Shown here piece after piece: positions 5,759 to 31,579 of a DNA stretch of 38,885 nt (the first letter of the stretch is position 1; each line of letters starts with the position of its first letter). A model generated the notes under the pieces. The model saw only the letters and a program-made list of their open reading frames with translations, was not told the origin of the DNA and ran no database searches. The stretch comes from Pseudomonadota bacterium (GTDB lineage: Bacteria > Desulfobacterota > JAPLJL01). The translations under genes and the position numbers were made by a program. Location: the NCBI GenBank assembly GCA_026388655.1, contig JAPLJI010000017.1:1-38885 (forward strand), in the 5' to 3' direction.

Positions 5759-6847
5759 TCAGATTATCACCAGATCATCCCGGTGGATCACCTCGTCGCG
5801 GTATTTGTATCCCAGGATCCGTTCGATGTCCTGGGTATTATGTCCGCCGATTTTTTTCACTTCCTCCGAGTCGTAAGCCGTGAGGCCCCGCGCGAACTCC
5901 TGGCGCTTCTCGTTCAGGATCCGGATCGAACTCCCGATCTGGAACCTGCCCTCCACCCCGACGATCCCGGAGGGCAGCAGGCTCTTCCCCTTTTCCCGGA
6001 TGGCGGTCTCGGCGCCCTGGTCGACTACAATGGCTCCCGCCGGTTTCAGGTTGTAGGCGATCCAGGACTTCCGTCCCTGCAATCGCCGGGACTGGGGCGG
6101 GCAGAAAGTCCCCATCGTTTCCCCGGCCATGACTTTTTGGAGGGTCCTGGGTTTCAAACCGTTGGCGATCACCACCGGAACCCCGAAGCGGGTGGCCCGG
6201 GTCGCGGCCTCAATCTTGCTCTTGATCCCCCCGGTGCCGAGGGGATTGGCCTTCCCCAGCCCGGCGAGCCGGGCTTTCTCCTCTCCCAGGAGGAGAACCG
6301 GAACCAGGCGGGCATCCTTATTTTTCCGGGGATCGGCCGAAAAGAGCCCATCGATATCCGAGAGGATGACCAGGAAGTCGGCCTTGACCAGGTTGGTCAG
6401 ATGGGCGGCGAGATTGTCGTTGTCCCCGAACTTGATCTCCTCCACCGCCACGGTGTCGTTCTCGTTCACGATCGGAAGCACCTTGAGCCGGAGCAGGGTC
6501 TGCACCGCCGCCCGGGCGTTCAGGAACCGGGTCCGGTCGGCCAGGTCCGCGTGGGTCAGGAGGATCTGGGCCACCCGGATTTTGTGCCGGGCGAAGGCCT
6601 CGATGTACAAATTCATCACCTGGACCTGCCCCACCGCCGCCGCCGCCTGTTTCTCCGGGATGGTGCGGGGGCGTCCCTTGAGCCGGAGTTTCCCGGTCCC
6701 GGAAGCGATGGCCCCCGAGGTGACCAGGATGACCTCCCGCCCGGATTTGCGGACCCGGGCGATGTCGTCGGCGAGCCCGAAGACGATCTTCCGGCTCAGG
6801 TTCCGCGTCCCGGCGGTCAGGGCGCTCGAACCGATCTTCACCACCAC
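5759..6847 (-). CDS. proB: Glutamate 5-kinase with C-terminal PUA domain
   Basis: Glutamate 5-kinase phosphorylates the gamma-carboxyl of glutamate, the first and usually proline-inhibited step of proline synthesis. The N-terminal amino-acid-kinase domain shows VVKIGSSALT, LVTSGAIASG near residue 45, NENDTVAVEEIKFGDNDNLAA near 135-155 and LSDIDGLF near 170. The last 90 residues form a PUA domain (GAIVVDQGAETAI, LLPSGIVGVEG). The length, 362 residues, fits the long ProB class. Three GTG codons in a row open the frame at 6847. Homologues usually have about ten residues before VVKIG, and the frame stays open upstream to 6917 without ATG or GTG, so a rarer upstream start is possible. It lies 96 bases after the obg frame. 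Confidence 0.95.
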   Translation of the reverse strand: MVVKIGSSALTAGTRNLSRKIVFGLADDIARVRKSGREVILVTSGAIASGTGKLRLKGRPRTIPEKQAAAAVGQVQVMNLYIEAFARHKIRVAQILLTHADLADRTRFLNARAAVQTLLRLKVLPIVNENDTVAVEEIKFGDNDNLAAHLTNLVKADFLVILSDIDGLFSADPRKNKDARLVPVLLLGEEKARLAGLGKANPLGTGGIKSKIEAATRATRFGVPVVIANGLKPRTLQKVMAGETMGTFCPPQSRRLQGRKSWIAYNLKPAGAIVVDQGAETAIREKGKSLLPSGIVGVEGRFQIGSSIRILNEKRQEFARGLTAYDSEEVKKIGGHNTQDIERILGYKYRDEVIHRDDLVII

Positions 6848-27240: not shown

Positions 27241-29862
27241 CTACCGGGCGCAGCGGAACCCGATCATTTCGTACTGGGAGGACGGCTGGCTGAAGTAGAT
27301 GTACCGCATGGAAGTGCGCAAGTGGAGCGCGCCGCTGTTCCACGACCCGCCGCGCAGGACCCGCAAGGAGCCTGAACCCGGCCCCGTGGGATCATTGACG
27401 GGGCTCGAGGCATAATATGTGGCACTGTACCAGTCATTCACCCACTCCCAAACGTTCCCCGCTATGTCATGCAACCCATAACCGTTAACCGGAGAGCCGC
27501 CCACCGGACTCGTATCCTCTTCGAGCGAGCAATAATCCGTGTAGCCTTGGGTGTCATAACTGTATTGCGTATCCGCATAGTAATTCGCGTTCACGCAGGA
27601 GATCGTATCCCCCCAGGGGAAACGCTTTCTGGAGAGTCCTCCCCGCGCGGCATACTCCCACTCCGCCTCCGTGGGCAACCGTCCCCCCTCCCATTGGCAA
27701 TAGGCTTCCGCCTGGCCCCAATTCACATATATCACCGGGTAATTGTCGTAAGTCGCATTTCCATAATAGGAGGCCCGGGAAAAGGAAGAACTGTTTCCGG
27801 GAGCGGTGCACGCCCCGGACGTCACGCAGGCCCGGTATTGCGCATTGCTCACTTCGTGAATGCCGATCTGAAAATCCGAAACGCAAGCATAATGAACCGG
27901 AAGCTCATTTCCGCCCCCGTTGGAAGCCGCGCTCCCCTCGTTGAAAGAATCGCCCATGTAGAAGCAACCGGCGGGGATGGAGGCCATGGTCATGGAATAG
28001 TCACGGAATTTCTGGATCCGGTCGTTGCCGAATTCACTCACATAAATGTTGCCGAACCGGTCGGTGGCAATCCCGACCGGCGAGTTGAACTGCCCGTCAC
28101 CCGTACCGGAACTGCCCCACAGGTTCAGGAGTCCGCCGTCGGATGTGAATTTCTGGACCCGGGAATTGCCGCTGTCGACCACATAGACACTCCTTTCCGA
28201 GTCCACCGCCACCCCGTTGATCGAATCGCTGAACTGCCCGTCGCCCGAACCGCAGCTTCCCCATTTGCCCTGAAAACCACCGGTGGAGGTAAATCTCTGG
28301 ACCCGGCAGTTGCCGTAATCCGTTACATAAACGTAGTTGTCGGAACTCACGGCAATCGCGCTGGGGAAATCAAACTGCCCGTCGGCCGAACCCTGGCTCC
28401 CCCACTTGGTGAGGAAGTTCCCGTTGGAATCAAATTTCTGGATCCGGTAATTACCCCGGTCGGCAACATAGATGTTGCCGGAATTATCCGACGCGATGGA
28501 ATAAAAATATCCGAACTGCCCGTCACCCGTACCGGAACTGCCCCACTTGGTGATGAACACACCATCGGAAGAAAATTTCTGGATCCGGTGATTGTTCTGG
28601 TCCGCGACATAAATGTTGCTCGCGCCATCGATGGCCACTCCCCCGGAAAGGCCAAACTGCCCGTCGCCTGTTCCCGAACTCCCCCACTTGAGGAGGAAAG
28701 TTCCACCGGCGGAGAACTTCTGCACCCGGCTGTTCTGGCTGTCGCCCACATAAACATTACCTTCCGAGTCAACCGCCAGGCCGCCCGGTTCGTTGAACTG
28801 CCCGTCGCCGGAGCCGTTACTGCCCCACTTGAGAACGAATTCCGGCGGGATTTTCTCGGAACCTCCTGAAGTCGTGGCACTTACCTCTTCGGAATAGCCG
28901 GAAGTGCCGTCTTCGTTATAAGCCCTCACCCGGTAGTAATAGATCGCCACGGCGGAAAGTCCATTATCCGGAAAATACATGATGTCCGGCCCGGTGACCT
29001 TGATTTCTTCGTAAGTCCCCCACCCCTCGGATTTCCGCTCCACCAGGAAGCCGTCCTCGTTGTCGGAATTATCCACCCAGTAAAGGCTGATCTCGCTTTC
29101 GGAAATAACGCCCAGGATCAGGTTGGAGGGCGCGGCCGGGACTCCAATGGTGCAATTCCAGGTCGTGGCGCTCACCTCGTTGGAATAATCCGAGATCTCG
29201 GAACCAGCGCCCGCGTACACCCGGTACCAGTAAGTCGTCCCGCAATTGAGACCGGTATGAAAATAATTAACGGAGTCCGTCGTCACCTCGTCCACCTCGG
29301 ACCAGGACCCCGCGCTTCCTTCCGAGACAAGAATCCCGAACTTGTCTTCATTATTGGAATTATCCTGCCAGGAGAGATTGATCTGGGTGGTGGAAACCGG
29401 CGTGGCCGCAAGTCCGGTCGGGGCGGAAGGCGCACCCGGGGATGTAGGTGACAACCTGATTTCCTTTTCCCCCGGATGGCATCCCCAGGTCTGCGTACCA
29501 GTCTCGTAGTCTTGATATCCAGTCATAGTCACGGTAACGGAATACGAGATGGACGAAGTGTCAAAAGAAAAATCGATGCAGCCGCTTCCATCGGTTTCGA
29601 CAATGACATTTTCCCGGCCATTTACCCTGGTATCCGAAGAAATCAGTGTAGTCTTCGCCCCCGGAAGCGGGCCTTCATTCTGGTCGTTAATCACCCGGCC
29701 GCACCACTCGCACTGCGATCCCCCGCTCTGCTGTTTCTTCGCGCATTCCGTCACGCTGTAATTCGATGCTTCCGGGTCGCAGGGGTTATTCCAATTCGTC
29801 GAAGCCGTGCAGGCACCGAACGATAGAAGCATGACCACGATAAAAAACAGGTGAATCCGCAT
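27241..29862 (-). CDS. Lipoprotein with FN3, NHL propeller and FGE/SUMF1-like domains
   Basis: About 873 residues. The lipoprotein signal peptide (MRIHLFFIVVMLLSFGAC) is followed by a Cys-rich start and a carboxypeptidase-regulatory-like domain. Two fibronectin type III domains come next (about 145-235 and 238-330; APSAPTGLAATPVSTTQINL, then VPAAPSNLILG). Six NHL repeats follow (about 337-622), each with KWGSxGxGDGQF, IYVADxxNxRIQKF and similar words. The last 250 residues are a formylglycine-generating-enzyme/SUMF1-like fold (PAGCFYMGD, GGRLPTEAEWEYAARGG, GLHDIAGNVWEWVNDWY, RVLRGGSWNS, IGFRCAR). The cysteine pair used for sulfatase activation is not at the usual place near RGGSW, so this domain is probably a binding module. 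An ATG at 29934 would add 24 repeat-encoded residues before the signal peptide; 29862 is preferred. Confidence 0.88.
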   Translation of the reverse strand: MRIHLFFIVVMLLSFGACTASTNWNNPCDPEASNYSVTECAKKQQSGGSQCEWCGRVINDQNEGPLPGAKTTLISSDTRVNGRENVIVETDGSGCIDFSFDTSSISYSVTVTMTGYQDYETGTQTWGCHPGEKEIRLSPTSPGAPSAPTGLAATPVSTTQINLSWQDNSNNEDKFGILVSEGSAGSWSEVDEVTTDSVNYFHTGLNCGTTYWYRVYAGAGSEISDYSNEVSATTWNCTIGVPAAPSNLILGVISESEISLYWVDNSDNEDGFLVERKSEGWGTYEEIKVTGPDIMYFPDNGLSAVAIYYYRVRAYNEDGTSGYSEEVSATTSGGSEKIPPEFVLKWGSNGSGDGQFNEPGGLAVDSEGNVYVGDSQNSRVQKFSAGGTFLLKWGSSGTGDGQFGLSGGVAIDGASNIYVADQNNHRIQKFSSDGVFITKWGSSGTGDGQFGYFYSIASDNSGNIYVADRGNYRIQKFDSNGNFLTKWGSQGSADGQFDFPSAIAVSSDNYVYVTDYGNCRVQRFTSTGGFQGKWGSCGSGDGQFSDSINGVAVDSERSVYVVDSGNSRVQKFTSDGGLLNLWGSSGTGDGQFNSPVGIATDRFGNIYVSEFGNDRIQKFRDYSMTMASIPAGCFYMGDSFNEGSAASNGGGNELPVHYACVSDFQIGIHEVSNAQYRACVTSGACTAPGNSSSFSRASYYGNATYDNYPVIYVNWGQAEAYCQWEGGRLPTEAEWEYAARGGLSRKRFPWGDTISCVNANYYADTQYSYDTQGYTDYCSLEEDTSPVGGSPVNGYGLHDIAGNVWEWVNDWYSATYYASSPVNDPTGPGSGSLRVLRGGSWNSGALHLRTSMRYIYFSQPSSQYEMIGFRCAR

Positions 29863-29966
29863 TACCCGTCTGAATCCGTTTTCGTCCGTCTGCATCTGGT
29901 TTATCCGTCTGAATCCGCTCTTATCCGTGTTCATCCGCGTTATCTTTTGTATCCGCGTTTATCCGC
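29862..29966. repeat. Degenerate tandem ATCCG-word array
   Basis: About eight spaced copies of ATCCG(T/C) words 11-14 bases apart (TCTGAATCCG, TCTGCATCTG, TTCATCCGCG, TTTATCCGCG). It abuts the 5' end of the FGE-like lipoprotein gene and belongs to the same family as the inverted repeat at 152-235. Confidence 0.6.
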
Positions 29967-29974
29967 GCGAGTTT

Positions 29975-31579
29975 TTAGAACTCAGCTCTCGCTCCCAGGT
30001 AACCCCCGCCTTCCGGATACGCGACTATTTCCGGGGAAATCGCTAATTTTGGACTTGCCAAATTTCCTTCCGCCCGGGCCGGGGCTTTCTCCGCGGGCGC
30101 GGCCAAGAAAGAAACCAGCGACAACACCGCCCCAAAACCAATCACCCCGTAAGAAGCGTAAACATATCTATTGTAACTAACCACAATTTCTTTATTCATG
30201 TTTATCAAATTCTGATTTGCTTCTGCCTCGTATTTTTCCCGAGCATCCCGGGCGGAAAGACTAAATACCCCCAGCAGAACAAGACCGGTAGCGGCAATGT
30301 CTATCCCGCTATATCCGAGCAGGTGCGCCCGCTCCCGACCTGATAATGGAGGCATGAAGATATAAGACAACGTGGCGGTGAGAAAACCGGCCCCGCTTAT
30401 TCCATACAAAGCGTAGCTCTCACCATGCACCTTGTGAAATTCATATTTTCCATCAATTTTATCTTCTTTAAGTATTGCCGGACCTATCATTCCCCCAACG
30501 AGCAAAGTCAACCCGGTGTAATAAAATCCCTTCGCCGTACTTCCCTTCCCCTTCGGCTTGGGCTTGGAAACCCTCGCCACCTCCCGCGGCTTTTCCAGCG
30601 ACTGAAGCGAATACCCGATCGTCCGGCTCTCACCTTCCCGCGCCTCGAAATCCTGGCTATAGCCCTGATAACCAACCAGTGACAATTCCACCCGGTGCGT
30701 CCCCGCCGGAACCATCACTTCGCGCGGCGTGGTCCCCACGCTCCTGCCGTCGATCAGAATCTGTGCTCCATCCGGCGCGCCCTGGACCCTGATGGTCGCC
30801 AACTGCTTTAACCGCGCCTCCATCGAGTTCAACCCCGGCTTCACCGAAACCATAATTTCCTGCGGGGCATACCCTTCCTTCTTCAGCAAGAGCCGATGAT
30901 CTCCGGGCTTGATGTCCTTCACCACCACCGGGCTCACCCCCGCCTGGCCGCCGTCCAGATAAACCTGCGCCTCGACCGGATCAGAGCTCACCTCCAGGCT
31001 TCCCAAAACCGGGGCTACCTTCGCCGGTTTGGCCGGCGCCGGCTTGGGCGGGGCCGCCACACCCCCAACCGCCTCCGCTAAAGCCGCCGAGACCTTGTCA
31101 ATCGAGCCGATCAACTGGTCCAGCTCGCAAGCCGAACAGCGGTCCGACGACATCTTCTCAATTTCCCCGGTCTCCACCCTGGTCATCTGGACGCTAATGA
31201 TATAGGTCTTCCCTAGAAGGGTCACATTCCCCGTCACCATCTTCTCCACCCCGAGCAGCTGGCCGACCTTGACCGCGCACTCCTTCGAGGTGCAATCCGA
31301 GAGTTGGAACCCCTGTTCCTTCATAATCCGTTCCATGTTGTTCCGATCCACCACCCGGAAACGGCCTGTCTTCCAGAGCTGTTCCCGGAGAATATCGGAA
31401 AGAGAGGTCTTGGCCTCCTGGGGAATGCCCGGGGAAAGATCCAGATCCAGAACCGCCAGGAATACCTTTTGCGGCGGGCCGGAAGGCGCCTCCCCTTGCG
31501 CCCAGATCAAATCCGGCCGCAGAACCGAAAAGAGAAAAACGATAGTTACCAGGGTGGAGATTGTTTTGGGTTTTTTCAT
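29975..31579 (-). CDS. CsgG-like/PEGA-domain membrane protein
   Basis: A 534-residue exported protein. A signal peptide (MKKPKTISTLVTIVFLFSVL, cleavage near IWAQ) leads into a CsgG/DUF-type N-terminal domain of about 150 residues: VFLAVLDLDL, SDILREQLWKTGRFRVVDRN, GVEKMVTGNVTLLGKTYIIS. Two PEGA domains follow (about 193-262 and 264-335): GSLEVSSDPVEAQVYLDG and ATIRVQGAPDGAQILIDG, each ending in a KEGY/LVGY motif. The last 180 residues hold about four membrane helices. The N-terminal part resembles proteins that combine several gene products to sense or build envelope structures; the exact role is unknown. It lies just upstream of the FGE-like lipoprotein in the same direction, 112 bases apart, suggesting a pair. 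Confidence 0.82.
   Translation of the reverse strand: MKKPKTISTLVTIVFLFSVLRPDLIWAQGEAPSGPPQKVFLAVLDLDLSPGIPQEAKTSLSDILREQLWKTGRFRVVDRNNMERIMKEQGFQLSDCTSKECAVKVGQLLGVEKMVTGNVTLLGKTYIISVQMTRVETGEIEKMSSDRCSACELDQLIGSIDKVSAALAEAVGGVAAPPKPAPAKPAKVAPVLGSLEVSSDPVEAQVYLDGGQAGVSPVVVKDIKPGDHRLLLKKEGYAPQEIMVSVKPGLNSMEARLKQLATIRVQGAPDGAQILIDGRSVGTTPREVMVPAGTHRVELSLVGYQGYSQDFEAREGESRTIGYSLQSLEKPREVARVSKPKPKGKGSTAKGFYYTGLTLLVGGMIGPAILKEDKIDGKYEFHKVHGESYALYGISGAGFLTATLSYIFMPPLSGRERAHLLGYSGIDIAATGLVLLGVFSLSARDAREKYEAEANQNLINMNKEIVVSYNRYVYASYGVIGFGAVLSLVSFLAAPAEKAPARAEGNLASPKLAISPEIVAYPEGGGYLGARAEF

Follow-up and report, generated by a model that had tools for sequence, protein, structure and literature searches.

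A predicted membrane scaffold with TolB-N/CsgG-like and PEGA domains is recurrently linked to FGE-type domains without catalytic cysteines

Two adjacent minus-strand genes in the window, which is the whole 38,885-nucleotide stretch analyzed here and is contig C190 of its source genome (G000; 3.56 Mb in 194 contigs, 94% complete), code for a 534-residue protein and, 40 bases downstream, for an 897-residue putative lipoprotein (Table 1). We hold with moderate confidence that both genes contribute to one cell-envelope complex, in which a membrane scaffold is joined by a lipoprotein whose non-catalytic head serves recognition or assembly. The first protein, with its signal peptide, TolB-N/LpoB/CsgG-fold domain, two PEGA domains and four hydrophobic segments, would be the membrane-anchored scaffold, possibly in oligomeric form. 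The second would contact it physically, and its cysteine-rich FGE domain, which has no cysteine at the catalytic site, would be the head, borne on FN3 modules and, in the window species, an NHL propeller.

Table 1. Features of the two genes and of the sequence between them (window coordinates; residue numbers refer to the open reading frames).
Feature	Coordinates	Strand or position	Evidence
CsgG/TolB-N-like, PEGA, four-helix protein, ORF of 534 aa	29975..31579	-	Pfam
CsgG/LpoB/TolB-N-like domain, residues 38-172	31064..31468	-	Pfam, AlphaFold model, structure search
PEGA domain 1	30809..31000	-	profile
PEGA domain 2	30605..30796	-	Pfam, profile
Four hydrophobic segments, residues 352-498	30086..30526	-	hydropathy; helices in low-confidence part of model
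C-terminal tail with terminal Phe, beta hairpin in low-confidence part of model	29981..30043	-	model, hydropathy
Degenerate tandem repeat of ~10 bp (TRF unit, + strand: ATCCGCGTTT)	29852..29976	-, between the two genes	TRF
FN3-NHL-FGE lipoprotein, ORF of 897 aa	27241..29934	-	Pfam domains; Met25 likelier start, by eye
Putative signal peptide and lipobox to Cys42, then NNPCD...SNY	29809..29862	-	lipobox by eye; hydrophobic peak
Weak CarboxypepD_reg-like match, residues 79-145, between lipobox and FN3 domain 1	29500..29700	-	20 bits vs cut-off of 32.3
FN3 domain 1, residues 170-255	29170..29427	-	Pfam
FN3 domain 2, residues 266-353	28876..29139	-	Pfam, profile
Six NHL repeats, residues 377-658	27961..28806	-	Pfam; TRIM71 NHL and Pizza propellers matched by sequence
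FGE-sulfatase (C-type-lectin-like) domain, residues 649-897, without catalytic cysteine pair	27244..27990	-	Pfam, alignment

Pfam finds two PEGA matches in the scaffold (E 6.6e-27, 93.7 bits, above cut-off), and a hydropathy scan gives a signal-peptide-like segment plus segments at residues 352-370, 391-409, 418-446 and 472-498, in agreement with a preliminary description of this DNA that listed two PEGA domains and four membrane helices. The signal peptide region contains no cysteine, and hence no lipobox by eye. The CsgG family is matched at residues 54-122 (E 1.2e-9), covering just positions 34-101 of the 210 in the profile, and the LpoB family match also passes its cut-off (28.1 bits against 22.3). 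The AlphaFold model, built from a nine-row alignment, has a mean pLDDT of 49.8 and its use was limited to residues 38-172; ten-residue blocks from 41 to 170 have pLDDT values of 77-88, with one block at 66. This part matches the TolB N-terminal domain with a Z score of 14.8 (rmsd 2.5 over 123 aligned residues), followed by FlgT (Z 13.7), LpoB (13.2), PelC (12.5) and CsgG (12.1), placing the modeled domain in the TolB-N/LpoB/FlgT/CsgG superfold. Because the CsgG profile is matched in its first half alone, we read this as a superfold domain rather than a CsgG pore. The domain had been called CsgG-like, and the partial CsgG match stands, but a name from the TolB-N/LpoB/CsgG superfold is more apt and there is no sign of a secretion pore. 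A CsgG secretion channel, for which a full CsgG domain with its pore hairpins and a lipobox would be expected, was rejected, as about half the domain is matched, the modeled domain is about 135 residues long and no lipobox is seen by eye. Unlike TolB, LpoB, FlgT and CsgG, the window protein continues from this domain into PEGA domains and four hydrophobic segments.

Cys96 and Cys101 are invariant in both nine-row scaffold alignments. Against solved structures, the scaffold sequence gave eight weak hits, to designed armadillo-type proteins, and we attribute these to chance. Scaffolds with at least two helices close with a short tail and a terminal Phe, as at L050 (3373-5343), L056 (4463-6148), L063 (4492-5391) and in the window (29981-30043).

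In the 897-residue frame Pfam recovers all of the domains listed in the preliminary description: two fn3 matches (E 3.2e-12), six NHL repeats (E 2.6e-42), expected to form a six-bladed propeller, and an FGE-sulfatase domain (PF03781) at residues 649-897 (E 5.5e-57; 193.8 bits, cut-off 23.3). Neither the CarboxypepD_reg-like match nor the tandem repeat over the first codons was part of that description. Lipidation is predicted at Cys42 from a lipobox that reads LLSFGAC by eye, and the anchor segment, beginning near residue 41, shares 77% identity across 35 residues with that of the syntenic lipoprotein in a second species of the genus (G002; record JAQTNV01, isolate STA_72). Motifs of the form NNPCD/NPLDP/NPFDP...Y stand just after a lipobox-like cysteine in the window (about 29780-29810) and at L002, L010, L063 and L091, that is, in five ORFs with differing heads, one of them in a Spirochaetes contig; the motif is possibly a sorting signal.

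The tandem repeat between the two genes, for which TRF also gives periods of 19 and 39 (61-77% matches), covers the first 23 residues of the lipoprotein frame (MNTDKSGFRRINQMQTDENGFRR); because it overlaps these first codons, the true start is probably Met25. At the same site in G002 (L056, about 6150-6290) there is, by eye, a different array of the ~10-bp unit. The pattern CGGATN5CGGATN5CGGAT occurs in three of 59 genomes, own included (G000, G002 at another place, and G013), and its reversed control in none. Four literal repeat strings had no match in a literature search with subscription papers mostly outside its scope.

In solved FGEs the cysteine pair shortly after RGGSY is the catalytic pair. 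The AlphaFold model of the window FGE domain, made from a two-row alignment, had a mean pLDDT of 33 and was discarded, so the active site was assessed by sequence alignment alone. In the alignment to 6muj and human FGE, the catalytic site reads LCHDSYC in 6muj and RGGSWNSGALHL in the window, leaving both catalytic positions after RGGSW without cysteine, as the preliminary description had proposed. Among 34 distinct related FGE domains, 30 could be evaluated at the motif; none has both catalytic cysteines and one has a single one. These data support a non-catalytic role for the predicted fold, and an active FGE is ruled out by the missing pair. In the relatives, the stretch after RGGSW, which in FGE carries the catalytic pair, belongs to the more variable parts, and the C-terminal stretch varies as well.

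A tree of 21 FGE rows resolves two clades, each with support of 100/100: one holds all six fused proteins (see below) and four unfused rows, and the other the 11 lipoprotein-type rows, including the window. CsgG linkage thus occurs in both. Cysteines 703, 709, 746 and 895 are present in all 21 domains, while Cys657 and Cys684 mark the lipoprotein clade (11 of 11 domains, against 0 of 10 in the other). Cys802 is less constant (9 of 11 and 7 of 10), and Cys780 is rare (2 of 11 and 0 of 10). Three disulfides are likely from these patterns, one specific to the lipoproteins and none at the catalytic positions.

The preliminary description had proposed conservation of the gene pair as a check, and the pair does recur. 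Gene order around it is kept in G002, where BLAST identities are 87.5% and 90.7% for the two genes upstream, which we take to be PurL and PurQ, and 93.9% for the gene directly after the pair, presumably MmgE/PrpD-like. The scaffold is 73.8% identical overall, with 90% in the CsgG-like domain and 63% in the helices, and the FGE part of the lipoprotein is 55% identical over 255 residues. Two genes farther on are at 68% and 62%; the pair is therefore not alone in changing fast. The G002 lipoprotein has 495 residues arranged as FN3-FN3-FGE, with no NHL or CarboxypepD_reg match; the propeller is therefore dispensable, and we rejected it as an essential part. No full-length relative of the window scaffold was found in the third genome of the genus (G001, 82% complete).

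FGE matches occur in ten genes of G000 and in one further 47-residue frame, and six of the ten genes are linked to a CsgG-like domain: three as neighbors (the window pair on C190, C78 at 539 bases and C148 at 19 bases) and three as fused CsgG-FGE proteins (C25, C191 and C176). The other four (C69, cut by the contig end, C47, C125 and C77) are unlinked within the stretches examined. Among the 15 FGE genes of G002 there is one neighbor pair (C17) and three fusions (C75, C1 and C58), and the FGE gene on C60 adjoins one for a PEGA protein with two hydrophobic helices and no CsgG-like domain. For the remaining ten, three of them cut by contig ends, the stretches examined show no clear CsgG or PEGA partner; one of the ten, on C59, lies about 1 kb from an ORF whose PEGA-like match is marginal (E 7e-3). 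When the C25 protein is left out of the CsgG profile, the fused proteins match it with E 1e-13 (C25) and 3e-12 (G002:C75), and more weakly 9e-7 (C176), 3e-6 (C191), 7e-6 (G002:C1) and 2e-5 (G002:C58).

Random placement of seven unfused FGE and eight unfused CsgG-like genes (one of them, on C175, a short match) among 2800 or 3300 genes, all of these gene numbers being estimates, produced at least three neighbor pairs at a frequency of 5e-6 to 1e-5 (200,000 draws each), and since paralogous pairs are not independent, the true strength of linkage is below what this frequency implies. In G001 (C35; L041 485-2223) a protein of the fused type is split, its CsgG-like and PEGA-FGE parts lying in two overlapping frames.

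All six fused proteins have a signal-peptide-like segment and no further hydrophobic segment by hydropathy, so the FGE and CsgG-like parts should share a compartment there. Among split scaffolds, those scanned add one to four hydrophobic segments, and their partner lipoproteins have one, at the N-terminus. These predicted topologies favor a periplasmic complex, or one at the inner face of the outer membrane, at least for the fused form. Of the earlier designation as paired surface proteins, the pairing is borne out by gene order, linkage and fusions, but the surface location is weakened, as the fused forms fit a periplasmic complex equally well. Adhesion or envelope sensing is a possible function.

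The scaffold family is also found with other partners. Scaffold genes on G000:C12, G002:C4 and G001:C111 each precede an ORF with one FN3 domain; that of G002:C4 has RCC1 repeats by Pfam and that of G000:C12 is similar by eye. Loci with the scaffold family beside FN3 ORFs are L052 (1-2827), L060 (3144-6138; RCC1 repeats by Pfam) and L066 (1705-4664). These FN3(-RCC1) neighbors have no FGE domain, which shows that FGE is not the sole partner. Among 28 loci from a named-genome scan, the profiles used show an FGE neighbor only at L077, which is the G002 locus, and an NHL neighbor at L084 (1-4478, Candidatus Firestonebacteria, outside the phylum sample), where a five-NHL ORF overlaps the beginning of the next, CsgG-like ORF, in which there are two CsgG-like matches. 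Partners of the scaffold family are thus of several kinds and include propellers. At L059 (3981-9223, on G002:C32) there are five tandem CsgG-like genes without PEGA matches.

Across 59 genomes, own included, a scaffold relative is present in nine (E 1e-10) and a part-match to the lipoprotein in 43. A fused protein was also searched against 297 genomes of the phylum, own included (E 1e-25, with no more than four candidates per genome scored), and among the matches listed, only those in the three genomes of the genus extend from residue 165 or earlier into the FGE domain. In G036 two listed matches begin within the last PEGA domain, at 335 and 363, and the remaining ones span roughly the FGE part. 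It seems that common parts have been elaborated here in a lineage-specific way. No paper combining CsgG and FGE-sulfatase was found in the literature, with most subscription papers outside the scope of the search. Taken singly, the domains are of known kinds; it is their pairing that recurs in the genus, at times within one fused protein.

The FGE heads at the conserved locus are not sisters. That of the window groups with those of G032 and G042, members of different families in the phylum (91/90; 94/91 in a 14-row tree), and the syntenic G002 head groups with G000:C148 (96/92; 94/92 in the 14-row tree). Constraining the syntenic heads to be sisters is rejected with 14 rows (log-likelihood difference 28.5, p-AU 0.0042), in an AU test chosen after the first tree had been seen and with most inner branches weak (11 of 18 open in the 21-row tree). 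Together with the difference in NHL repeats, this suggests that the outer half of the lipoprotein was replaced beside an orthologous scaffold. On this view the locus would keep the scaffold and the N-terminal anchor segment of the lipoprotein, and outer modules would be gained, lost or swapped. The pattern could also have arisen by ancient paralogy followed by loss, or by gene conversion in G002.

The available text of PMC5006420 describes FGE-type C-type-lectin folds as ligand-binding scaffolds in some proteins of diversity-generating retroelements (DGRs). The window lipoprotein resembles DGR variable proteins (TvpA, Mtd) in a sequence match to TvpA (2y3c) and in the variable C-terminal stretch of its relatives; unlike them, it resides in a genome with no detected reverse transcriptase or near-identical template. 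The G000 contigs (94% complete) gave no PF00078 match and no template near-identical to the 3' end of the lipoprotein gene, and its last 200 bases find their best other match in the paralogue on C148, at 68% over 137 bases. With neither component found in this genome, the lipoprotein is not a recognizable DGR target, and we rejected this explanation.

A possible, if doubtful, alternative to a recognition head is that the FGE domain is a structural assembly unit with no external ligand, forming disulfide-bonded oligomers in a periplasmic or outer-membrane array in the manner of OCTIN or of the PorK/GldK ring lipoprotein of the T9SS. According to the available text of PMC5915273, bacterial FGE domains without catalytic cysteines are widespread, many of them of open function, and have N-terminal extensions, PEGA among them; OCTIN itself has no catalytic cysteines and forms disulfide-bonded periplasmic oligomers. 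As described there, OCTIN and its kin resemble the window protein in a C-terminal FGE domain without catalytic cysteines, an N-terminal extension and other cysteines; in the present genus the domain is instead found in an FN3/NHL lipoprotein or fused to a TolB-N/CsgG-fold domain, and a split scaffold partner is not mentioned in that text. The clade-wide non-catalytic cysteines agree with an assembly unit, as do the fused forms, which place FGE in the compartment of the CsgG-like part. PorK/GldK, by model and PDB names a lipoprotein with an FGE-like fold, is matched by sequence, but the GldK model TIGR03525 scores 112.9 bits, far under its cut-off of 350, and the window protein differs in having FN3 and NHL modules. 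Recognition would account at least equally well for these modules and for the changes in the outer part.

It is unlikely that the domain works as a different type of enzyme, comparable to PvdO or the sulfoxide synthases: models and structures of PvdO, EgtB and SenA are matched, but the model scores are all far under the NCBIfam cut-offs, there is no DinB domain among the Pfam matches, and the stretch after RGGSW is a variable one. We regard as similarly improbable a scaffold that acts as an LpoB-like activator of peptidoglycan synthases, or as a cell-wall regulator, modulated by the lipoprotein. The Pfam LpoB match and the structural match to LpoB agree with this, but the equivalog TIGR02722 scores 35.5 bits against a cut-off of 110.55, TolB and FlgT fit the fold equally well or better, and LpoB is a lipoprotein, whereas the scaffold shows no lipobox by eye. 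That the two genes are merely unrelated neighbors is very improbable; a CsgG partner is missing for many FGE genes of the genus, and an FGE partner for some CsgG genes, but the order is kept in two species, and further pairs and fusions occur.

TolB combines a TolB-N-like domain and a six-bladed propeller within one chain. In the window copy these two elements appear to be divided between two partner proteins, and the Firestonebacteria pair hints that this split arrangement is wider. Tentatively, and as no better than a working idea, the two genes may belong to a genus-level system in which a TolB-N/PEGA scaffold presents interchangeable heads (FGE, FN3-FGE, FN3-NHL-FGE or FN3-RCC1), the head being replaced while the scaffold and lipid anchor are kept, so that a C-type-lectin-fold binder is diversified without a reverse transcriptase. 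For the preferred reading, of one complex with a non-catalytic head, the recurrent partner and the fusions provide a handle on the function of FGE domains without catalytic cysteines, predicting both a binding partner and a shared compartment. If true, exchange of heads at a fixed locus would be a further route, free of retroelements, to diversifying an FGE-fold binder.
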